Of a stretch of 64,000 bases of DNA, positions 34,153-56,763 are shown one piece after another. Each line of letters begins with the position of its first letter. The first letter of the stretch is position 1. The notes beneath the pieces were generated by a model. The model did not search any database. It saw only the letters and a program-made list of their open reading frames with translations, and was not told the origin of the DNA. The stretch comes from Streptomyces sp. DG2A-72. Lineage in GTDB: Bacteria; Actinomycetota; Actinomycetes; Streptomycetales; Streptomycetaceae. The position numbers and the translations under genes are program-made. The stretch covers positions 8,456,001 through 8,520,000 of the forward strand of contig NZ_JASTLC010000001.1 in assembly GCF_030499575.1 (NCBI RefSeq). The letters are read 5' to 3'.

Positions 34153-34436
34153 CGGACGGGCTGAGCGGGGGGCTATGGCAGCGCGTCGACCGGCGTGGTG
34201 GGAGCGGAGGGCATGGGGGGTGTGTCCGGAGTCTCGGGGGTGGCGGGGAGGGTGGGAGCGCTGGGTGCGGTTCGCGGCAGGTCGCGCGCGTCTTTTTTCG
34301 GATGGGCTGAGCGGGGCTATGGCAGCGTGTCGACCGGCGTGGTGGGAGCGGAGGGCATGGGGGGTGTGTCCGGAGTCTCGGGGGTGGCGGGGAGGGTGGG
34401 AGCGTTGGGTGCGGTTCGCGGCAGGTCGCGCACGTC
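34147..34436. repeat. Tandem direct repeat of about 145 bases over the sigma factor 3' end
   Basis: Copies at about 34147-34292 and 34293-34436 are nearly identical. They differ at a handful of single bases plus a 2-base length change in a G run, and one more T in the first copy. Each runs from a T tract through TCGGAYGGGCTGAGCGG to GCAGGTCGCGCRCGTC. The second copy encodes the last residues and stop of the sigma factor. The first lies between that stop and mceG and repeats the same coding sequence in frame after the stop. Confidence 0.85.
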
Positions 34437-42207: not shown

Positions 42208-44772
42208 TTACGAGGTGAAGTGGGCGGGCAGGTCGGGGGGTACGGGTGGACGTCCTGGCGTGCTCTTGAGGGTGAGGACCATGGTCATGCCGCCGCCGGG
42301 GGTGTCCTCGGCGACGAGGGTGCCGCCCATGGCCTCGGCGAAACCGCGGGCCACCGCGAGGCCCAGACCGACCCCGGCGCCGCGAGGCGCATCCCCGTAC
42401 CGCTGGAACGGCTCGAAGATCCTCTCCTTGGCCTCGTCGGGTACACCGGGCCCGCGGTCGACGACGCGCAGCTCGACCCGGTCGCCGAGCGTGCTGGCGG
42501 AAACAAGCACCATCTCGTTCTCCGGGCCGTACTTCACGGCGTTCTCCACGACGTTGGCGACGGCCCGCTCCAGCAGCCCGGGGTCGGCCGAGACCATCGG
42601 CAGGGTTTCGGGAATCTCCAGGGCGACGGAGCCTTCGGGAACGCCGCCGAGGGCCATCGGCACCACTTCGTCCAGGTCCACGTCGCGGATCAGCGGTGTG
42701 ACGGTGCCGGTCTGCAGCCGGGACATGTCCAGCAGGTTGCCCACCAGGTGGTCGAGCCGGTCGGTGCCTTCCTCGATGCTCGCCAGCAGTTCCGCCTGGT
42801 CCTCTTCGGACCATTCGATGTCGTCGGAACGCAGCGAGGTGACCGCGGCCTTGATGGTGGCCAGCGGAGTCCGCAGATCATGGCTGACGGCGGCGAGCAG
42901 CGCGGTGCGGATCCGGTTGCCCTCGGCCAGTACGCGGGCCTGCCCGGCTTCCTGCTTGAGCCGCTGGCGGTCCAGGACGACGGCGGCCTGGGCGGCGAAG
43001 GCGGCCAGCACCCGGCGGTCCTCGGCGGGCAGCACCCGCCCGGACAGGGCGAGTACGAGGTGGTCGCCGACCGGCATGTCGACGTCGGCGTCCACCGGGC
43101 GCTCGATCGGACGGGCCGCCCCGACTCTGCCCGCGCAGGTCCACGGCTCGACCTCGCCGCTCCGCTCCAGCAAGGCCACCGACTCCATGCCGAAGGTCTC
43201 CCGCACCCGCTCCAGCAGCGCCTCCAGACCGTCCTCACCCCGCAGCACGCTGCCCGCCAGGAAGGACAGGGTCTCGGACTCGGCGCGCAGCCGGGCGGCC
43301 TGGTGGGTCCGGCGGGCGGCCAGGTCCACGACCGAGGCGACCGACACACCGACCGCGAAGAAGACGACGATGGCGAGGACGTTCGCCGGATCATCGATGA
43401 TCCAGGTGTGGGTGGGCGAGGTGAAGAAGTAGTTCAGCAGCAGCGAGCCGGCCGTGGCCGCGGCCAGCGCGGGCAGCAGCCCGCCGAGCAGTGCGGCCCC
43501 CACTGTCAGGGTCAGGAACAGCAGCACCTCGTTGGCGAAGCCGGGCCCGTCGTCGGCGGGCCGGGTGTTCCACACCGAGGTGAGCAGCAGGGTCAGCAGC
43601 ACCGGGCCGACCACACCGACCAGCCATCCGGCGATGATGCGGGAGCGGCCGAGCCGGGCGCCGCGCGCCACCGGCAGCCCGCGTCCCTTGGCGGCCTCCT
43701 CGTGGGTGACGATGTGGACATCGAGGTCCGGCCCGGACTCGCGGGCCACCGTGGCACTCACCCCGGGCCCGAAGGCGTACTGCCAGGCGCGCCGGCGGCT
43801 GACGCCGAGCACGATCTGGGTGGCGTTGACACTCCGGGCGAAGTCCAGCAGCGCCTGCGGTACGTCGTCGCCGACGACCTGGTGAAAGGTGCCGCCCAGG
43901 TCCTCGACGAGGGTGCGCTGTACGGCGAGTTCCTTGGGCGAGGCGGAGGTCAGCCCGTCGCTGCGGGAGACGTAGACCGCCAGCACCTCGCCGCCCGCGC
44001 CCTTCTCCGCCAGCCGGGCCGCTCGCCGGATCAGGGTCCGCCCTTCAGGGCCGCCGGTCAGCCCGACGACGATCCGCTCGCGGGCCTGCCAGGTGGAGCG
44101 GATGTCGTGTTCCCCGCGGTACTGCTGCAGGTACTCGTCGACCCGGTCCGCGGTCCACAGCAGCGCCAGCTCCCGCAGCGCGGTCAGATTGCCCGGCCGG
44201 AAGTAGTTCGACAAGGCCGCGTCGACCTTGTCGGGCTTGTAGATGTTGCCGTGCGCCATCCGGCGGCGGAGCGCCTGCGGTGACATGTCGACCAGCTCTA
44301 TCTGGTCGGCGCGACGGACCACCTCGTCCGGTACGGTCTCCCGCTGCCGTACGCCGGTTATCGACTCGACGACATCGCCGAGCGACTCCAGGTGCTGGAT
44401 GTTGACGGTCGTGATGACGTCGATCCCGGCTTCCAGCAGCTCCTCGACGTCCTGACACCGCTTGGGGTTCCGGGAGCCGGGCACGTTGGTGTGGGCCAGC
44501 TCGTCCACCAGGGCGACGGCCGGGCGGCGCTTCAATACGGCGTCCACATCCATCTCGGTGAACACCGCGTCCCGGTACGTCAGCTCCCGGCGCGGGATCT
44601 GCTCCAGGCCGTGCAGCATCACCTCGGTACGCGGCCGGTCGTGGTGCTCCACGAAGGCCACCACACAGTCGGTGCCGCGCTCCACGCGGCGGTGCGCCTC
44701 CGACAGCATCGCGTAGGTCTTGCCGACGCCCGGCGCCGCACCGAGGTAGATCCGAAGCTTGCCGCGTGCCAT
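42208..44772 (-). CDS. kdpD: Second KdpD-type sensor histidine kinase
   Basis: The 854-residue protein matches the other KdpD in this window along its whole length. It has the KdpD N-terminal domain with Walker A GAAPGVGKT (11-19), a USP domain at about 245-370, four DUF4118 helices at about 390-490 and a GAF-like segment. The HisKA box VSHDLRTPLATIKAAV is followed by HATPase motifs NVVENAVKYG, DRGPGVPDEAK and GAGVGLGLAVARGF. All catalytic motifs are intact, so it should autophosphorylate. KdpD senses low K+ or ionic stress. Upstream lie a kdpE stub, kdpF and a micropeptide gene, the remains of a duplicated kdp operon. Without an intact KdpE of its own it must use the KdpE at 51.3-52.0 kb or another regulator. 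Confidence 0.9.
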   Translation of the reverse strand: MARGKLRIYLGAAPGVGKTYAMLSEAHRRVERGTDCVVAFVEHHDRPRTEVMLHGLEQIPRRELTYRDAVFTEMDVDAVLKRRPAVALVDELAHTNVPGSRNPKRCQDVEELLEAGIDVITTVNIQHLESLGDVVESITGVRQRETVPDEVVRRADQIELVDMSPQALRRRMAHGNIYKPDKVDAALSNYFRPGNLTALRELALLWTADRVDEYLQQYRGEHDIRSTWQARERIVVGLTGGPEGRTLIRRAARLAEKGAGGEVLAVYVSRSDGLTSASPKELAVQRTLVEDLGGTFHQVVGDDVPQALLDFARSVNATQIVLGVSRRRAWQYAFGPGVSATVARESGPDLDVHIVTHEEAAKGRGLPVARGARLGRSRIIAGWLVGVVGPVLLTLLLTSVWNTRPADDGPGFANEVLLFLTLTVGAALLGGLLPALAAATAGSLLLNYFFTSPTHTWIIDDPANVLAIVVFFAVGVSVASVVDLAARRTHQAARLRAESETLSFLAGSVLRGEDGLEALLERVRETFGMESVALLERSGEVEPWTCAGRVGAARPIERPVDADVDMPVGDHLVLALSGRVLPAEDRRVLAAFAAQAAVVLDRQRLKQEAGQARVLAEGNRIRTALLAAVSHDLRTPLATIKAAVTSLRSDDIEWSEEDQAELLASIEEGTDRLDHLVGNLLDMSRLQTGTVTPLIRDVDLDEVVPMALGGVPEGSVALEIPETLPMVSADPGLLERAVANVVENAVKYGPENEMVLVSASTLGDRVELRVVDRGPGVPDEAKERIFEPFQRYGDAPRGAGVGLGLAVARGFAEAMGGTLVAEDTPGGGMTMVLTLKSTPGRPPVPPDLPAHFTS

Positions 44773-44803
44773 GGTTCAGGGGTTCCGATCGTTCTGCGCT
44801 GGC

Positions 44804-44953
44804 CGGCCCGGTGATGAGGTGGCGTGGATGCGATGGGTCTGCCTCCAGTTTGCGCCGCGGGCGTGTCACGTAGACCCGCAGGTTGTCGGTGTGTGTCTCG
44901 TACGAGGGTCCCCACACCTCCTGGAGCAGATGCCTTTGGCTGCCCAGCCGCCC
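44804..44953 (-). pseudogene. C-terminal stub of a duplicated kdpE
   Basis: Fifty codons read GRLGSQRHLLQEVWG, NLRVYVTRPRRKLEADPSHP and RHLITGP. These match the DNA-binding tail of the intact KdpE (GRLVTQGQLLQEVWG, NYLRVYMAQLRRKLEADPSH, RYLITEP). The receiver domain, the first part of the winged helix and the last eight residues are missing. The frame has no start, and its 5' edge is 10 bases from the kdpF stop. A deletion that fused kdpF to the end of kdpE explains this. Confidence 0.85.
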
Positions 44954-44963
44954 CGCGCCGTGC

Positions 44964-45053
44964 TCAGAACCTCTCTGGAAAGATCAGCGCGAGGACCAGA
45001 CGGCCCAGCAAGGTCACGGCCACGACCAGCCCGACGATGTTCTCGGTGCTCAC
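44964..45053 (-). CDS. kdpF: KdpF-like peptide of the duplicated kdp remnant
   Basis: GTG 45051-45053 to TGA 44964-44966 encodes 29 residues (STENIVGLVVAVTLLG...LALIFPERF). This matches the KdpF at 56.5 kb except for a few changes, including Arg for Tyr in the middle of the helix. KdpF is a single-helix peptide that stabilises KdpFABC. Here no kdpABC follows, so it may be orphaned, could join the distant complex in trans, or may be decaying. The Arg inside the helix argues for relaxed selection. Confidence 0.7.
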   Translation of the reverse strand: MSTENIVGLVVAVTLLGRLVLALIFPERF

Positions 45054-45133
45054 AGCCGTCCCACCCCCCGGGCAATGAGAGCCGCCAGCGCGAACACCGC
45101 GACCGTGGCGCATACGAAGGCCACATTGGCCAT
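45050..45133 (-). CDS. 27-residue membrane micropeptide, duplicated copy
   Basis: ATG 45131-45133 to TGA 45050-45052 encodes 27 residues beginning MANVAFVCATVAVFALAAL and ending in a GVGRL-type tail. It overlaps the kdpF start in GTGA. Compared with the copy at 56607-56690, 3 codon changes are synonymous and most others conservative (two Lys to Arg, Ile/Val swaps). It is one predicted helix with a basic C-terminal end. I know no described family, and I infer a Kdp-associated peptide. Confidence 0.6.
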   Translation of the reverse strand: MANVAFVCATVAVFALAALIARGVGRL

Positions 45134-48692: not shown

Positions 48693-51245
48693 CTACGAGG
48701 TGGCCGTTGCCGGGAGACCAGGCCGTGTCGACGGAGGGCTGGTCGCCGCCGGGAGGGTGAGGACCATGGTGAGGCCGCCGCCGGGGGTGTCCTCGGCGGT
48801 GAGGGTGCCGCCGATGGCCTCGGCGAAGCCGCGGGCGACTGCCAGGCCGAGGCCGACGCCGGTGCCGCGTGGGGCGTCGCCGTAGCGCTGGAAGGGTTCG
48901 AAGATGCGGTCCTTGGCCTCGTCCGGGACGCCCGGGCCACGGTCCACGACACGGACCTCGACCCGGTCGGCGTGGGCGCTCGCCGATACGACGACCGGCT
49001 TGCCGTCGGGGCTGTACTTGACCGCGTTCTCCACGATGTTGGCGACCGACCGCTCCAGCAGACCTTTGTCGACGGCGACCATGGGCAGGGTTTCGGGGAT
49101 GTCCAGGACGACGGTCGACTCGGGGTCCGGGACGCCGCCCAGTGCCATGGGGACGACTTCGTCCACGTCGATCTCGCGGATGAGCGGGGCGAGTGTGCCG
49201 GTCTGCAGGCGGGACATGTCCAGAAGATTGCCCACGAGGTGGTCAAGGCGGTCGGCGCCCTCTTCGATGCCCTCCAGCAACTCCGCCTGGTCCTGTTCGG
49301 ACCACTCGACGTCGTCCGAACGCAGGGACGTCACCGCTGCCTTGATGCCCGCCAGCGGGGTGCGCAGGTCATGGCTCACTGCGGCCAGGAGCGCGGTGCG
49401 GATGCGGTTGCCCTCGGCCAGTTCCTTGGCCTGGTCCGCCTCGGACTGCAGCCGCTGACGGTCCAGGACCACCGCGGCCTGCACGGCGAAGGCGGCGAGG
49501 ACGCGGCGGTCCTCGGCGGGCAGGACCCGGCCGGACAGGGCGAGGGCCATGTGGTCGCCGACCGGCATGTCGACGTCCGCGTCCTCGGGCCGGTCGACAG
49601 GCTGTCCGGTCCCGGCGCGACCGGCGCAGGTCCATGGCTCGACGTCGCTCTCGCGCTCCAGAAGGGCGACCGACTCCATGGCGAAGGTCTCGCGGACCCG
49701 TTCCAGGAGGGCTTCCAGGCTGGTCTCGCCGCGCAGGACGTTGCCGGCCAGGAAGGAGAGGATCTCCGACTCGGCGCGCAGCCGGGCGGCCTGGTGGGTG
49801 CGGCGGGCCGCCAGGTCCACCACCGATGCCACCGAGGCCGCGACCAGGACGAAGATCGCCAGCGCGAGCATGTTCTTGGGGTCGGCGATGGTGATGCGGT
49901 GCACTGGGGGAGTGAAGAACCAGTTCAGGAGCAGCGTGCCGACCGCTGCCGAGGCCAGTGACGGAAGCAGGCCACCGAGCAGGGCGGCGCCCACGGTGAG
50001 CGTCAGGAACAGCAGCATGTTGTTGGTGAGGCCGAGGTCGGCGTCGCTGTGGGTCAGCAGCAGCGTGAGGAGTGCCGGGCCACCGATACCGGTCAGCCAG
50101 CCCCAGATGAGCCGGGACCGGCCGAGGCGCGCGCCCCGGGACACGGGCAGTCCGCGTCCCTTGCCCGCCTCGCTGTGCGTGATCAGGTGCACGTCGAGGT
50201 CGGGCCCCGAGTCCCGGGCGACCGTCGCGCCGACGCCGGGTCCGAAGACGTACTGCCATCCCTTGCGACGCGACACTCCGAGGACGATCTGGGTGGCGTT
50301 CACCCCGCGCGCGAAGTCCAGCAGCGCCACCGGGACGTTGTCGCCGACGACGTGGTGGAAGGTGCCGCCGAGGTCCTCCACCAGGGTGCGCTGGACGGCC
50401 AGTTCCTTGGGGGAGGCGGAGGTGAGCCCGTCGCTGCGGGCGATGTACACGGCCAGTACTTCGCCGCCCGCTCCCTTCTCCGCCAGCCGGGCGGCGCGGC
50501 GGATCAGGGTCCGCCCCTCCGGCCCTCCGGTGAGGCCGACCACGATGCGCTCCCGCGAACCCCAGATCTTCGACACCCGGTGCTCACTGCGGTACTGCTG
50601 CAAATATTCGTCGACCCGGTCGGCCACCCACAGCAGCGCCAACTCGCGCAGCGCGGTGAGATTGCCCGGCCGGAAGTAGTTGGACAGCGCCGCGTCGACC
50701 TTGTCCGGCTGGTAGATGTTGCCGTGCGCCATGCGCCTTCGCAGGGCCTGCGGGGACATGTCGACCAGCTCGATCTGGTCCGCCCGCCGCACCACCTCGT
50801 CCGGCACCGTCTCCTTCTGCCGTACGCCGGTTATCGACTCGACGACGTCGCCGAGCGACTCCAGGTGCTGGATGTTGACGGTCGACACGACATCGATCCC
50901 GGCCGCGAGCAACTCCTCGACGTCCTGCCACCGTTTGGCGTTGCGCGAGCCGGGGATGTTGGTGTGCGGCAGCTCGTCGACGAGGGCCACGGCGGGGGCG
51001 CGCCGCAGCACCGCGTCCACGTCCATCTCGGTGAACGTCGTGCCGCGGTACTCGATCTCCTTGCGGGGCACTTGCTCCAAGCCCTGGAGCATCACCTCGG
51101 TGCGCGGCCGGGCGTGGTGCTCCACGAAGGCGACCACGCAGTCGGTGCCCCGCTCGATGCGGCGATGGGCCTCGGACAGCATGGCGTAGGTCTTGCCGAC
51201 GCCCGGTGCGGCGCCGAGGTAGATCCGGAGCTTGCCGCGTGCCAT
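48693..51245 (-). CDS. kdpD: KdpD sensor histidine kinase of the main kdp locus
   Basis: The 850-residue protein has the full KdpD order: an N-terminal P-loop domain (GAAPGVGKTYAMLSEAHRR), a USP domain, four membrane helices (GAALLGGLLPSLASAAVGTL and followers), a GAF-like region, HisKA with VSHDLRTPLAGIKAAV, and HATPase with ENAVKYSPDGKP, DRGPGVPDEAK and GTGVGLGLAVARGF. It phosphorylates KdpE, encoded 47 bases upstream, when K+ is limiting, and so switches on kdpFABC. It is nearly a twin of the kinase at 42.2-44.8 kb, so two kinases may feed one regulator. Confidence 0.95.
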   Translation of the reverse strand: MARGKLRIYLGAAPGVGKTYAMLSEAHRRIERGTDCVVAFVEHHARPRTEVMLQGLEQVPRKEIEYRGTTFTEMDVDAVLRRAPAVALVDELPHTNIPGSRNAKRWQDVEELLAAGIDVVSTVNIQHLESLGDVVESITGVRQKETVPDEVVRRADQIELVDMSPQALRRRMAHGNIYQPDKVDAALSNYFRPGNLTALRELALLWVADRVDEYLQQYRSEHRVSKIWGSRERIVVGLTGGPEGRTLIRRAARLAEKGAGGEVLAVYIARSDGLTSASPKELAVQRTLVEDLGGTFHHVVGDNVPVALLDFARGVNATQIVLGVSRRKGWQYVFGPGVGATVARDSGPDLDVHLITHSEAGKGRGLPVSRGARLGRSRLIWGWLTGIGGPALLTLLLTHSDADLGLTNNMLLFLTLTVGAALLGGLLPSLASAAVGTLLLNWFFTPPVHRITIADPKNMLALAIFVLVAASVASVVDLAARRTHQAARLRAESEILSFLAGNVLRGETSLEALLERVRETFAMESVALLERESDVEPWTCAGRAGTGQPVDRPEDADVDMPVGDHMALALSGRVLPAEDRRVLAAFAVQAAVVLDRQRLQSEADQAKELAEGNRIRTALLAAVSHDLRTPLAGIKAAVTSLRSDDVEWSEQDQAELLEGIEEGADRLDHLVGNLLDMSRLQTGTLAPLIREIDVDEVVPMALGGVPDPESTVVLDIPETLPMVAVDKGLLERSVANIVENAVKYSPDGKPVVVSASAHADRVEVRVVDRGPGVPDEAKDRIFEPFQRYGDAPRGTGVGLGLAVARGFAEAIGGTLTAEDTPGGGLTMVLTLPAATSPPSTRPGLPATATS

Positions 51246-51291: not shown

Positions 51292-51975
51292 TCATGACTC
51301 GAAGCGGTAACCCATGCCCGGCTCGGTGATGAGGTAGCGGGGGTGGGAGGGGTCCGCCTCGAGTTTCCGTCTCAACTGGGCCATGTAGACCCGAAGGTAG
51401 TTCGTCTTGGCGCTGTAGGTGGCCCCCCAGACCTCCTGGAGCAGCTGCCCTTGAGTGACCAGGCGGCCGGGGTTGCAGACCAGGATCTCCAGCAGGTGCC
51501 ACTCGGTAGGGGTGAGCCGGATGTCGTGGCCGCCTTTGGTGGCCTTCTTGGCCAGCAGGTCGATGGTGAAATCGCTCGTCGTGACCATGGTCGTCTCGGG
51601 CGCCATCGGCAGCGCCTCGGTACGCCGGACGGCGGCCCGCAGCCGGGCCAGCAGCTCGTTCATGCTGAACGGCTTGGTGATGTAGTCGTCGGCGCCCGCG
51701 TCGAGGGCTTCGACCTTCTCGTCGGACGCCGTCCGGGCGGACAGGACCAGTACGGGCACCCGGGTCCAGCCGCGCAGCGCCTTGATCACCTCGACGCCGT
51801 CCATGTCGGGCAGGCCCAGATCCAGCACCACCACGTCCGGCTGGCGGGCGGCGGCCAGTCGGAGCGCGGTGGCGCCGTCCGGCGCGGCGTCCACGCCGTA
51901 CTGGCGGGCCTGCATGTTGATCACGAGGGCTCGTACGAGCTGTGGATCGTCCTCCACCACCAGCACCCGGGTCAT
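51292..51975 (-). CDS. kdpE: KdpE response regulator
   Basis: The 227-residue protein has a receiver domain with the acidic pair EDD at 8-10, the phosphorylated Asp52 in VLDLGLPDMDG and the switch Lys in ITKPF. An OmpR-type winged helix follows (TPTEWHLLEILVCNPGRLVT, ending YLITEPGMGYRFES). It activates kdpFABC when phosphorylated by KdpD. Its order after kdpC and before kdpD is normal for actinobacteria. It is the only intact KdpE in the window. Confidence 0.95.
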   Translation of the reverse strand: MTRVLVVEDDPQLVRALVINMQARQYGVDAAPDGATALRLAAARQPDVVVLDLGLPDMDGVEVIKALRGWTRVPVLVLSARTASDEKVEALDAGADDYITKPFSMNELLARLRAAVRRTEALPMAPETTMVTTSDFTIDLLAKKATKGGHDIRLTPTEWHLLEILVCNPGRLVTQGQLLQEVWGATYSAKTNYLRVYMAQLRRKLEADPSHPRYLITEPGMGYRFES

Positions 51976-52093: not shown

Positions 52094-52705
52094 TCAGCGG
52101 CCGGCCAGTTCCTTGAGCGCGATGTTGAGTTCGATGACGTTGACGCGCGGCTCGCCCATGAAGCCGAGGGCGCGGCCGTCGGTGTGGTCCTTGACCAGCT
52201 TGTCGACCTGGGCGACGGTCAGCCCGTTCGCCTCCGCGACCCGCTTCACCTGGATGTCCGCGTAGTCCGGGGAGATGTCCGGGTCGATGGCGGAGGCTGA
52301 GCCGGTGACCGCGTCGACGGGCACTTCGGACTCAGGTACGCCGTTGAACTCGGCAACCTGCTTCTTCGCCGCCTTCACCGTCTTCACGAGCTCGGGGTTG
52401 CCGGCGCTGAGCTGGCCGGAACCGGTGGCCAGCGGGTCGTAGTCGCTGTTGGACGGCCGTCCCTGGAACCACTTCGGGTCCGGCTTGTCGGTGCCCTTGA
52501 TGTTCCAGCTCTGGCCGATCAGCTGGGAGCCGACCTGCTTGCCGTCGACCTCGACCATCGAGCCGTTGGCCTTGTCGTGGAAGGCGAGTTGGCCGATGCC
52601 GGTGACCACGAGGGGGTAGATGACGCCGGTCACGACGGTGAGGACGAGGAGCATGCGCAGCGCCGCCCATGCCAGGCGTCCGGTGTTTGCCACGGAGTTG
52701 TTCAT
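52094..52705 (-). CDS. kdpC: Potassium-transporting ATPase subunit KdpC
   Basis: The 203-residue protein has one N-terminal membrane helix (residues 12-34) and the periplasmic KdpC domain. Signatures include VITGVIYPLVVTGIGQLAF, a GSQLIGQSW motif, the FQGRPSNSDYDPLATGSGQL segment and the conserved VTGSASAIDPDISPDYADIQ block. KdpC is a structural and catalytic chaperone of the pump. It starts 6 bases after the kdpB stop. Confidence 0.95.
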   Translation of the reverse strand: MNNSVANTGRLAWAALRMLLVLTVVTGVIYPLVVTGIGQLAFHDKANGSMVEVDGKQVGSQLIGQSWNIKGTDKPDPKWFQGRPSNSDYDPLATGSGQLSAGNPELVKTVKAAKKQVAEFNGVPESEVPVDAVTGSASAIDPDISPDYADIQVKRVAEANGLTVAQVDKLVKDHTDGRALGFMGEPRVNVIELNIALKELAGR

Positions 52706-52711
52706 GGTCCT

Positions 52712-54850
52712 TCACCCGATTCCGGGGAACAGCGAGATGAGCAGGTCGATGAGCTTGATGCCGATGAACGGGGCGATCAGACCGCCCAGGCCGTAGATCC
52801 CCAGGTTGCGGCGGAGCATCTTGTCGGCGCTCATCGGGCGGTACCGCACGCCGCGCAGGGCGAGCGGTACCAGGGCGATGATGATCAGCGCGTTGAAGAT
52901 GACCGCGGACAGGATCGCCGACTGAGGCGACGACAGGTTCATGATGTTGAGCTTGTCGAGCGACGGGTAGGCGACCGCGAACATCGCCGGGATGATCGCG
53001 AAGTACTTCGCGACGTCGTTGGCGATGGAGAACGTGGTCAACGCGCCCCGGGTGATGAGGAGTTGCTTGCCGATCTCGACGATCTCGATGAGCTTGGTCG
53101 GGTTGGAGTCGAGGTCGACCATGTTGCCGGCCTCCTTGGCGGCCGACGTACCGGTGTTCATCGCGACGCCGACGTCCGCCTGCGCGAGCGCGGGCGCGTC
53201 GTTCGTACCGTCACCGGTCATCGCGACCAGCTTGCCGCCCGCCTGCTCCCGTTTGATCAGCGCCATCTTGTCCTCGGGGGTGGCCTCCGCGAGGAAGTCG
53301 TCGACGCCCGCCTCGTCCGCGATCGCCTTGGCGGTCAGCGGGTTGTCTCCCGTGATCATGACGGTCTTGATGCCCATGCGGCGCAGTTCCTCGAACCGCT
53401 CCCGCATGCCGTCCTTGACGACGTCCTTGAGGTGGATGACGCCCAGGATCCGGGCGCCCTGGTCGTCCTGGATCGCGACCAGCAGCGGCGTACCGCCCGC
53501 CTCCGAGATGCGGCCCGCGATCTCGTCGGCGTCCTCGGCGACCGACCCGCCCTGCTCCCGCACCCAGGCGATGACCGAACCGGCCGCGCCCTTGCGGATG
53601 TTCTTGCCGTCCACGTCCACGCCCGACATGCGGGTCTGGGCGGTGAAGGCGATCCACTCGGCGTGCGCCAGCTCGCCCTGGTGGCGTTCGCGAAGCCCGT
53701 ACTTCTGCTTCGCCAGTACGACGATGGAGCGGCCCTCGGGCGTCTCGTCGGCCAGCGAGGAGAGCTGGGCGGCGTCGGCGACCTCGGCCTCGGTGGTGCC
53801 GCGCACCGGCACGAACTCGGCGGCCTGACGGTTGCCGAGGGTGATGGTGCCGGTCTTGTCGAGCAGCAGCGTGGAGACGTCACCGGCGGCCTCGACCGCC
53901 CGGCCGGACATGGCGAGTACGTTGCGCTGCACCAGCCGGTCCATGCCCGCGATGCCGATCGCGGAGAGCAGTGCGCCGATCGTGGTCGGGATCAGGCACA
54001 CCAGCAGCGCGGTGAGCACGATCAGCGAGGTCTGCTTGTCGGCGCCCGCGTAGACGGCGAACGGCTTCAGCGTCACGACCGCGAGCAGGAAGACGATGGT
54101 GAGCGAGGCGAGCAGGATGTTCAGCGCGATCTCGTTCGGCGTCTTCTGCCGGGCGGCGCCCTCGACCAGGTTGATCATCCGGTCGATGAAGGTCTCGCCC
54201 GGCTTCGTCGTGATCTTGATGACGATCCGGTCGGAGAGCACCTTCGTACCGCCGGTGACGGCGCTGCGGTCGCCGCCGGACTCGCGGATGACGGGCGCGG
54301 ACTCGCCGGTGATCGCCGACTCGTCGACGGAGGCGACGCCCTCGACGACGTCACCGTCGCCGGGGATGATGTCGCCCGCCTCGCAGACGACGAGGTCGCC
54401 GACCTTCAACTCCGTACCCGGGACCTGCTCTTCGGTGTCCCCGACGAGCCGGCGTGCCACGGTGTCGGTCTTGGCCTTGCGCAGGGTGTCCGCCTGCGCC
54501 TTGCCGCGGCCCTCGGCGACCGCCTCGGCCAGGTTGGCGAAGACGACGGTCAGCCACAGCCAGACGGCGATGACCCAGCCGAACCAGTCGCCCGGGGTCT
54601 TGACGGCCAGCACGGTGGTGACCACCGAGCCGATGAGCACGACGAACATCACGGGGGACTTGACCATCACCCGCGGATCGAGCTTGCGGAAGGCGTCCGG
54701 CAGCGACTTGACGAGCTGCTTGGGGTCGAACAGGCCCGCGCCGACGCGGCCCTCGGCGGGCTTGTGCCCGGTCGGTACGTCCTGGTGCGGTGCCCGGGTC
54801 GGGGTAACCGTGGACATCGGGTCCTCTTGCTTCTCGGTGTGGGTGGTCAT
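52712..54850 (-). CDS. kdpB: Potassium-transporting P-type ATPase subunit KdpB
   Basis: ATG 54848-54850 overlaps the kdpA stop (ATGA), giving 712 residues. An internal ATG at 54815-54817 gives an N-terminus ([10 protein letters not shown]) more like relatives and is an alternative. The P-type ATPase motifs are present: AITGESAPV in the actuator domain, the phosphorylated Asp331 in [13 protein letters not shown], and [20 protein letters not shown]. It hydrolyses ATP to drive K+ uptake through KdpA. Confidence 0.96.
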
Positions 54851-56511
54851 GCCGCCAGCCCCTCGGCGAGCGGGCCCAGCGCCAGGGCCGGGAAGAACGT
54901 CAGACCGGTGATGATCATGATGGCGCCGACCAACAGGCCGGTGAACAGCGGCTTTTCGGTGCGTAGGGTGCCCGCGGTGACGGGAATGGGCTTCTGTTCG
55001 GCGAGCGAACCGGCCAGCGCCAGCACGAACACCATCGGCAGGAACCGGCCCAGCGCCATGCACAGGCCCAACGTCGTGTTGAAGAACTCCGTGTTGGCGC
55101 CGAAGCCCGCGAACGCGGAGCCGTTGTTGTTGGAGGCCGACGTGTAGGCGTACAGCACCTCGGAGAAGCCGTGCGCCCCGACGTTGGTCATGGCGTCCTT
55201 GCCGTCCGGCAGGGCCATCGCCACCGCGGTGCCGATCAGGACCAGCGCGGGCGTGATGAGGATGTAGCAGGCGGCCAGCTTGATCTCGCGGGTGCCGATC
55301 TTCTTGCCCAGGTACTCGGGCGTACGGCCCACCATCAGACCGGCGAGGAACACCGCGATGATCGCCATGATCAGCATGCCGTAGAGGCCGGAACCGACGC
55401 CGCCGGGCGCGATCTCACCGAGCATCATGCCCAGCAGCAGCACACCGCCGGACAAGCCCTGGTAGGAGTCGTGGAAGGAGTTCACCGACCCGGTCGAGGT
55501 CATGGTCGTCGACACCGCGAACAGTGACGACGGGCCTTCGCCGAAGCGCTGCTCCTTGCCTTCCATCGAGCCGCCGGCGATCTGCGAGGCGGTCCCCGGG
55601 TGGGCGTACTCGATCCACGTCACCGCGACCACCGCGAGGAACCAGATGATCCCCATGGCGGCGACGATGGCGTAGCCCTGCTTGACGTTGCCGACCATCT
55701 TGCCGAAGGTGCGCGGCAGCGAGAACGGGATCACCAGCAGCAGGAAGATCTCCAGCAGGTTGGTGAAGCCGCCCGGGTTCTCGAACGGGTGCGAGCTGTT
55801 GGCGTTGAAGAAGCCGCCGCCGTTCGTCCCCAGGTCCTTGATGGCCTCCTGGGAGGCGACCGCGCCGGGGCTGATGGCCTGCTTGTCGCCGGTCAGCGTG
55901 GTGATCGTGTGAATGTCGCCGAAGTTCTGGATGGCACCGGCCGCGATGAGGATCACGGCCGCGACCACGGAGATGGGGAGCAGGATGCGGACGACGCCGC
56001 GCACCAGGTCCGCCCAGAAGTTGCCCAGGTCCCCGGTGCGGGAGCGGACGAAGCCGCGCACCAGGGCCACCGCGACGGCGATGCCGACAGCGGCGGAGAC
56101 GAAGTTCTGCACGGCCAGCCCGGCGGTCTGGGTGACGTGGCTCATCGTCGCCTCACCCGAGTACGACTGCCAGTTGGTGTTGGACACGAACGACACGGCG
56201 GTGTTGAACGCCTGGTCCGGCGTGATCGGCTTGAAGCCGAGCGACAGCGGCAGCTTGTCCTGGACGCGCTGCAGCACGTACAGGAACAGCACGCTCACTG
56301 CGGAGAAGGCCAGTACTCCGCGCAGGTAGGCGGGCCAGCGCATCTCCGTGTCGGGGTTGGCGCCGACCGAGCGGTAGATCCACTTCTCGATGCGCAGGTG
56401 CTTCTTGGACGAGTAGACGGCGGCCATGTAGTCGCCGAGGGGACGGTGCACCAGGGCGAGCGCGCCGATCAGCGCGGTCACCAGGAGCACGTCAGCAAGG
56501 ACGGGGCTCAT
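54847..56511 (-). CDS. kdpA: Potassium-transporting ATPase subunit KdpA
   Basis: The 554-residue channel-like subunit has ten membrane helices and the four Gly-rich selectivity loops typical of Kdp[51 protein letters not shown] and [12 protein letters not shown]. It binds K+ with high affinity and passes it to KdpB through an internal tunnel. ATG 56509-56511 lies 9 bases after the kdpF stop. Confidence 0.96.
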
Positions 56512-56520
56512 GACGGCGGC

Positions 56521-56610
56521 TCAGAACCTCTCCGGGAAGATCAGGGCGAGGACGAGATAGCCCAGCAGGGCGACGGCCACGACCAGGCCGACAATGTTCT
56601 CGGCGGTCAC
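56521..56610 (-). CDS. kdpF: KdpF peptide
   Basis: GTG 56608-56610 to TGA 56521-56523 encodes 29 residues: ENIVGLVVAVALLGYLVLAL followed by IFPERF. This is the single-helix KdpF that stabilises the KdpABC pump. Its start overlaps the stop of the 27-residue micropeptide gene in a GTGA, so translation of the two is coupled. Confidence 0.9.
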   Translation of the reverse strand: MTAENIVGLVVAVALLGYLVLALIFPERF

Positions 56611-56690
56611 AGCTTCGCCACCCCCTTGGCGACGAGAGCCACAAGCGCGAACACCGCGATCGTGGTGACGACGAAGGCCACGTTGGCCAT
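56607..56690 (-). CDS. 27-residue membrane micropeptide upstream of kdpF
   Basis: ATG 56688-56690, with AGGAG 6 bases upstream, opens 27 codons starting MANVAFVVTTIAVFALVAL and ending with a GVAKL tail. The product is one predicted helix with two Lys at the C-terminal side. It is the first gene of the kdp operon and is coupled to kdpF. The duplicated kdp remnant keeps the same peptide with synonymous and conservative changes only, strong evidence that it is translated and selected. It may be a second KdpF-like stabiliser or a leader that couples translation. Confidence 0.7.
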   Translation of the reverse strand: MANVAFVVTTIAVFALVALVAKGVAKL

Positions 56691-56763
56691 CGCAAGCTCC
56701 TGAATGAGGTTCGGAAATCCGTAAGAGGATCGGACCGCTACAGAAAACCCGCTTCCCGGCCGG

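Follow-up and report, generated by a model that had tools for sequence, protein, structure and literature searches.

Kdp is a textbook K+ pump, and the closest described counterpart of the small gene reported here is the pump's own KdpF (PF09604/TIGR02115): like the peptide, KdpF is a tiny single helix, is encoded in the same operon, often by an overlapping gene, and is likely a stabilizer of KdpABC. CydX and AcrZ are likewise small single-helix proteins supporting a larger membrane complex, but their complexes are unrelated to Kdp and the likeness is one of description alone. MgrB, which acts on PhoQ, stands for another class, that of the sensor-kinase peptides, likewise small, single-pass and encoded near a two-component system. 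Two small hydrophobic-peptide ORFs, orfZ and orfY (kdpZ and kdpY), were reportedly noted before kdpA of Clostridium acetobutylicum by Treuner-Lange in 1997; these too are small ORFs ahead of kdpA, a likeness of description. The available part of PMC5401905 gives the operon order in that species as kdpZYABCXDE, and Streptomyces Kdp is given as KdpFABC in the available parts of PMC13011467 and PMC10117811.

The window, by which we mean the whole stretch of 64,000 nucleotides of Streptomyces sp. DG2A-72 that was analyzed, carries an intact kdpFABC-kdpE-kdpD cluster, of which gene 1 is an ORF of 27 codons with its ATG at 56690, its TGA at 56609-56607 and the product MANVAFVVTTIAVFALVALVAKGVAKL. 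A sequence-only reading had described it, and a second version of it elsewhere in the window, as a complete small gene with a ribosome site that overlaps kdpF by GTGA, and all of this was re-read as stated in both versions. The intact operon comprises the following.

56607..56690, minus strand: peptide ORF, provisionally a candidate fifth Kdp subunit (ORF reading and profile matches)
56697..56701, minus strand: ribosome binding site AGGAG of the peptide (read in the sequence)
56607..56610, minus strand: GTGA overlap of the peptide TGA with the kdpF GTG start (read in the sequence)
56521..56610, minus strand: kdpF, 29 aa (Pfam PF09604, E 6.5e-10; NCBIfam TIGR02115)
54847..56511, minus strand: kdpA, 554 aa (PF03814)
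56266..56280, minus strand: kdpA codons 78-82 (Tyr78 ... Arg82), proposed peptide docking residues
52712..55063, minus strand: kdpB ORF, within which the true start probably lies near the kdpA stop
52094..52705, minus strand: kdpC (PF02669)
51292..51975, minus strand: kdpE
48693..51245, minus strand: kdpD of the intact operon (PF02702)

Absence of the frame from other Streptomyces kdp loci, named beforehand as grounds for refutation, was not seen: the peptide is found in 37/37 loci of the genus, the window's included. In 35 of these it is a 27-aa ORF with the four-base kdpF overlap (an SD-like site in 34/35, an ATG start in 34/35), and the other two also have the peptide, one (L030) with extra DNA before kdpF and one (L035) with a kdpF missed by the filter. 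Codon positions 1 and 2 of the peptide vary about as those of kdpA do (0.157 and 0.099 vs kdpA window medians of 0.156 and 0.095), and the bases 5′ of its ribosome site are near saturation in the genus loci. Third positions are unusually constant across the 35 loci: with a variability of 0.156 they rank below all but 0.2% of kdpA windows, and those of kdpF (0.192) below all but 2.8%. Pooled dN/dS over the same loci is 0.59 for the peptide and 0.39 for kdpF, with 0.89 and 1.44 in the +1 and +2 frames and 0.71, 1.10 and 2.36 on the reverse strand, which is only moderate support for coding.

The sequence-only reading had argued chiefly from two kdp copies in the window. A second peptide/kdpF pair does exist, but it belongs to a remnant (42208-45133) and not to an operon: kdpABC has been deleted, and what is left is the peptide, kdpF, a 3′ piece of kdpE and an intact kdpD.

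45050..45133, minus strand: peptide ORF of the decayed kdp remnant, the second in the window, product MANVAFVCATVAVFALAALIARGVGRL
44964..45053, minus strand: remnant kdpF, with Tyr18 changed to Arg in the helix
44800..44953, minus strand: kdpE 3′ remnant (repeat D6, 73% to 51315-51468)
42208..44772, minus strand: intact second kdpD, 854 aa (dN/dS 0.10 to the G408 ortholog)

In length, ribosome site and kdpF overlap the remnant peptide (45050-45133) matches that of the intact operon, and the layout of the remnant is also present in a single further genome of the genus, G408 (L156). The two peptide versions do differ at 8 residues, with 3 codons changed only synonymously, as had been claimed; there are 10 nonsynonymous vs 6 synonymous changes between them, a dN/dS of 0.68, and the same comparison gives 0.21 for kdpF and 0.21 for kdpD. 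The two-copy evidence is weak because one copy is a remnant, and by itself this comparison is poor support for coding. The source genome has one full-length kdpA, whose product is a 93% match to KdpA of Streptomyces sp. NBC_00080, and pieces of another kdpA elsewhere; a third, scrambled kdp relic in it (G000:C1:1432966-1433559, L116) is made of pieces of the peptide, kdpF and kdpA.

Far more telling is the distribution. A profile of 20 actinobacterial peptides (A2, which includes members of the set searched) gave 53 matches at E<=6e-9 in 61 whole genomes, the next standing at 0.007; 50 of the 53 adjoin kdpA, two end at contig ends and one is the window's remnant. Put the other way, 50/51 ordinary full-length kdpA places in these genomes have the peptide, G037 being the exception, and six divergent kdpA copies in the set gave no A2 match. 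Among 296 genomes of the phylum there were 17 matches at 1e-3, 16 beside kdpA and one the remnant, and the 245 of them without KdpA gave none at E<=1e-3. A2 is narrow, detecting the peptide in only 16/51 KdpA-bearing genomes of this phylum sample, and a broader profile detects ORFs in several loci that it missed (e.g., L044, L047, L052, L066, L097 and L098).

Beyond the phylum, a KdpA scan of named genomes yielded 80 loci, three with too little upstream DNA. Another hydrophobic ORF, some 26-45 residues long, is found ahead of kdpF in alpha-, beta- and some gammaproteobacteria, delta/Myxococcota, Acidobacteria and Chloroflexota, and in one locus each of Planctomycetes, Binatia, Melainabacteria and Eremiobacterota; in this named set it was not seen in loci of Enterobacterales, Pseudomonas, Aeromonas, Enterococcus, Clostridia, Bacteroidota, Ignavibacteria or Elusimicrobia. 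Of the 67 named loci with a recognized kdpF, a fixed ORF rule finds another small hydrophobic ORF immediately upstream in 38; the chance level, from 60 dinucleotide shuffles, is 1.8 (sd 1.3, maximum 5). A combined profile finds the peptide in 40/80 named loci, 27 of these 40 being members of the profile, and 153/226 loci match at E<=0.01, near-duplicates and profile members counted. None of the Clostridia-class loci (L244-L250) was matched by the peptide profile; L244-L248 have a KdpF-like ORF, and L250 also has an unrelated-looking 29-aa hydrophobic ORF further upstream. Deinococcus and rhizobial plasmids also have the peptide. The gene is listed in none of 12 annotated plasmid records that contain the ORF (ten by profile, two by inspection), although the gene table is incomplete, and an E. 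coli kdp locus, one of 143 matched records, has no annotated gene at that place and no profile match better than E 0.6. We consider it almost certain, on this sequence conservation, that the ORF is a real, widely conserved and unannotated small membrane protein gene.

Ordinary searches do poorly here. With its low-complexity filter, tblastn on plasmids missed even the Azospirillum copy present in that collection, a failure that may help to explain how such peptides escape notice, and it returned zero matches with the window peptide; a scan of viruses for the peptide gave no match, direct protein searches being blind here.

The actinobacterial and other versions form one family by profile comparison, and that family is distinct from KdpF. 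Profile A5, built from non-actinobacterial peptides with zero actinobacterial sequences, aligns with A2 end to end and in register (hhalign 96%, E 4.7e-9), and it detects the peptide in 39/115 actinobacterial loci, with 0 on the reverse strand; in the reverse test, the narrow A2 found only 2/77. The family core, from which there are many departures, is Met-x-Asp, then Phe-Phe-Ala in the helix and (Cys/Val)-(Glu/Asp)-Arg-Leu at the end. Given their common size, single helix and neighboring genes, and one locus (L110) without a visible kdpF between the peptide and kdpA, one could envision a diverged KdpF duplicate able to replace KdpF. Profile comparison of the peptide with KdpF nevertheless yields hhalign values of only 0.7% and 3.8%, the window peptide has no Pfam or NCBIfam match, KdpF models included, and 10 of its relatives have no KdpF match and only weak, unrelated ones below cut-off. 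The conserved Tyr-Leu ... Pro-Glu-Arg-Phe of KdpF contrasts with the peptide's Met-x-Asp ... Phe-Phe-Ala ... Glu-Arg-Leu: the C-terminal P-E-R-F-type motif is absent from the peptide, whose alignments end mostly in Arg/Lys-Leu. KdpF, moreover, is normally present beside the peptide, and a replacement for it is thus extremely improbable. A search of the PDB with the peptide profile gave no credible match (best E 0.91).

Alternatively, the frame could be a leader or upstream ORF, translated only to feed ribosomes to kdpF or to sense something, with a functionless peptide sequence. The GTGA/ATGA overlap with kdpF occurs in many lineages, and synonymous sites are unusually conserved in the window's genus, both of which speak for a leader. 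Yet the sequence is kept across phyla in one register, and the overlap itself is missing in most alphaproteobacterial loci, which have a gap of about 10 bases in its place. At L225 the peptide lies about 300 bases from kdpF, and at L110 it stands at the start of kdpA, with no kdpF seen. A5 was also run on 34 whole genomes, 27 known to have the peptide ORF and seven without it; 25 matches at E<=1e-4 (19 of them A5 members) fell in 23/27 ORF-bearing genomes, four being missed, and the seven others gave no A5 match at 0.1. Three of the matches lie away from the known locus (G534, G513 and G529), each at a second kdp operon, and in one of these operons, L243 of Burkholderia cepacia LK29 (G529, the genome of L226), the order is kdpF-peptide-kdpA and the peptide has its own ATG 42 bases after kdpF, an arrangement that argues against a leader. 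No Rfam match lies near the peptide, and folding of 12 of the 35 genus loci showed no excess RNA structure (mean z -0.2). For the constancy of synonymous sites in the genus no explanation was found, RNA folding having given none. A leader is accordingly very unlikely, and the first reading's preference for a translated peptide over a leader or a chance frame gains from the cross-phylum conservation, the swapped order and a link to KdpA residues 78 and 82, all of which suggest translation.

This link, together with a topology signal, bears on where the peptide would sit. Lys or Arg occurs in residues 1-6 of 1/61 model peptides and in the last nine of 58/61, which by the positive-inside rule would place the N-terminus outside. 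When KdpA columns were compared between named loci with and without the peptide, residues 82 and 78 were picked; the association with KdpB columns was weaker. The window's KdpA has Tyr78 and Arg82 and that of E. coli Phe78 and Leu82, positions which, from topology, we take to lie near the outer end of the helix preceding the first selectivity-filter loop. In the PDB, three near-identical KdpA sequences related to the window's account for 25 entries, which are presumably the E. coli protein, and the one aligned has Phe78/Leu82. Neither the peptide nor the Tyr/Arg pair is present in the loci seen of Enterobacterales (with E. coli among them), Pseudomonas and Bacteroidota, or in most of those of Clostridia. 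Once L223 is re-read, Arg82 is present in the KdpA of 39/40 peptide-bearing loci of the named set, and outside the loci used for the pick it accompanies the peptide in 92/98 actinobacterial, 10/10 plasmid and 3/3 second-operon loci. Arg is also seen at 82 in 13/69 profile-negative loci: three are partial (L190, L216 and L069), one is misread (L166), six carry a by-eye peptide ORF with no profile support (L197, L238, L126, L130, L131 and L115), L013 has a degenerate 26-aa ORF at the right place, and L199 and L246 are true exceptions, in which no peptide was found.

Shared ancestry was taken into account on a FastTree KdpA tree built without the columns tested. Of its 135 rows 130 are labelled; most genus loci and other near-duplicates were left out, as were L166, L190, L216, L235, L069, L249 and L250 (most of them partial), and eight loci were treated as ambiguous (L197, L238, L126, L130, L131, L115, L045 and L013), five of them among the 135 rows. 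Arg82 is found in 68/75 peptide-bearing rows vs 2/55 other KdpAs, and columns 82 and 78 tie as the best of 177 (0.931; next 0.846). The peptide changes at least 10 times on the tree, and in 7 independent supported pairs Arg82 agrees with it in 6 and opposes it in none (median p 0.03, range 0.016-0.22), a result unchanged when L197, L238, L126 and L130 are counted as peptide-present. Seen from the side of Arg82, 10 pairs differ in that residue; on average the peptide goes along with it in 6.4 of them and is the same in 3.6, and it never runs counter to it.

The exceptions point to position 3 of the peptide. In all seven peptide-bearing KdpAs without Arg82 (L017, L048, L049, L053, L061, L102 and L165) the peptides have no acid there, taking an in-register GTG start over an upstream ATG in L061 and an in-register ATG over a longer start in L053; five of the seven belong to one actinobacterial family (f6), so they represent about three events. 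The sole peptide lacking the acid although its KdpA keeps Arg82 is the window's own (Asn3), starts having been re-set in L110 and L174. A covariation scan over KdpA residues 1-252 ranks the pair 3-82 highest, with a z of 8.4 against 5.9 for the runner-up. This is only marginally more than random re-pairings give, whose maxima stay within 7.9 in 95% of cases and go up to 9.5, and without f6 the pair is at rank 20 of 5967. Because of this marginal covariation and its dependence on f6, docking of Asp3 on Arg82 is a good hypothesis and no proof.

A pump subunit should be encoded in the kdp operon across lineages, as the peptide is, and its presence should be tied to features of another subunit, as it is to Tyr78/Arg82 of KdpA. 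Conservation, operon linkage, family unity, the topology signal and the KdpA correlation, all read from sequence, suggest a peptide that would be translated, dock on KdpA and have a stabilizing role. We consider it likely that the ORF encodes a single-pass membrane fifth Kdp subunit, held by KdpA, in those pumps where it is present. Such a peptide would be made together with KdpF and would insert with its N-terminus outside and its basic C-terminus in the cytoplasm, against the first transmembrane helices of KdpA; Asp3 would pair with Arg82 and lie close to Tyr78, where the helix leading into the first filter loop has its outer end, and the peptide would stabilize or tune the pump in the manner of KdpF. 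The earlier suggestion of a possible second stabilizer fits this picture, to which phylum-wide conservation, the swapped gene order and the KdpA 78/82 link all lend support. We also lean toward the wider proposal that in many phyla Kdp has five subunits, with an overlooked single-pass peptide of ~26-45 residues docking through Asp3-Arg82 at the outer face.

Several observations weigh against a docking subunit. E. coli Kdp works without the peptide; Asn, not Asp, stands at position 3 of the window's peptide, whose KdpA nevertheless has Arg82; L199 and L246 have Arg82 and no detected peptide; the narrow A2 reaches the peptide in just 16/51 KdpA-bearing genomes of the phylum sample; the pair 3-82 barely exceeds re-pairings and depends on f6; and Arg82 could be a feature of one lineage of pumps and make no contact with the peptide. 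Peptide and Arg82 might then both be marks of one transferred ancient pump lineage, with a pump peptide that does not dock at Arg82, and the covariation among peptide-bearing operons does rest largely on one family. Such common descent sits poorly with the KdpA tree, on which the peptide changes at least ten times and Arg82 changes along with it in 6 of the 7 independent pairs; we regard it as improbable.

A different partner has also to be weighed: the target of the peptide may be KdpD, the sensor kinase, or some membrane protein other than the pump, much as MgrB acts on PhoQ. The remnant is what suggests it. Lacking kdpABC, it keeps a constrained kdpD (dN/dS 0.10), and its peptide is better kept than its kdpF: between the window's remnant and that of G408, where the kdpF start codon is lost, the peptide shows 3 nonsynonymous to 6 synonymous changes (0.20) and kdpF 9 to 3 (1.24). 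This leaves room for a role with KdpD, which is also encoded in 39/39 peptide-bearing genomes. The remnant counts are tiny, though (Fisher p 0.087); two other copies, in G389 and G474, likewise have no full kdpA next to them, and in these the peptide and kdpF ORFs are both still open; and KdpD is also found in genomes that lack the peptide (controls including E. coli), so that its presence offers no contrast. That the peptide correlates with residues of KdpA argues for the pump, and its linkage to pump genes and KdpA residues sets it apart from the MgrB type. Action on KdpD is therefore unlikely, if not negligibly so. KdpF itself binds KdpD in a two-hybrid assay, with no major effect on kdp regulation (available part of PMC3618439).

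Kdp thus probably has a fifth, unstudied part. We propose that it was missed for two reasons, its gene being too short for annotation and E. coli, from which the solved structures come, belonging to lineages without it. If many Kdp pumps have such a subunit, the published models of stability, gating and inhibition would be incomplete for those pumps, and the claim gives one-residue predictions, at peptide Asp3 and KdpA Arg82. The peptide had been called undescribed, which holds within the literature searched, orfZ/orfY of 1997 being a possible precedent: the main texts on Kdp and kdpF, as far as available, yielded no description of the family. The available parts of PMC5716572, PMC11364881, PMC10903887 and PMC9650054 have nothing on a peptide ORF, the main texts of PMC9094748 and PMC11133741 do not contain "kdp", and PMC10117765 has 0 mentions of kdpF and 0 of kdpA. 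A start site 120 nt before kdpF of M. smegmatis is described as leaving a 5′-UTR (available part of PMC5401905), and Caulobacter kdp is given a 5′-UTR of about 100 nt (available part of PMC8552747); either of these so-called kdpF 5′-UTRs may hold a gene.

Further small ORFs and kdp variants were encountered. Five Bradyrhizobium kdp operons (L217, L222, L233, L237 and L239) have a third small hydrophobic ORF of 22-28 aa between kdpF and kdpA, and small hypothetical genes lie between kdpA and kdpB in Phyllobacterium (L119, 3192-3365) and between kdpF and kdpA in Acidithiobacillus (L121, 1306-1446). Some genomes with ordinary kdp genes also contain a KdpA of another, divergent kind (about 640-650 bits) that comes with no strong peptide match (G047:C143:130-1797, G043:C30, G041:C9, G046:C22:119370, G042:C236 and G060:C396:1474). 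In the window itself, 34169-34436 contains two 124-base repeats that start 144 bases apart and are 98% identical.
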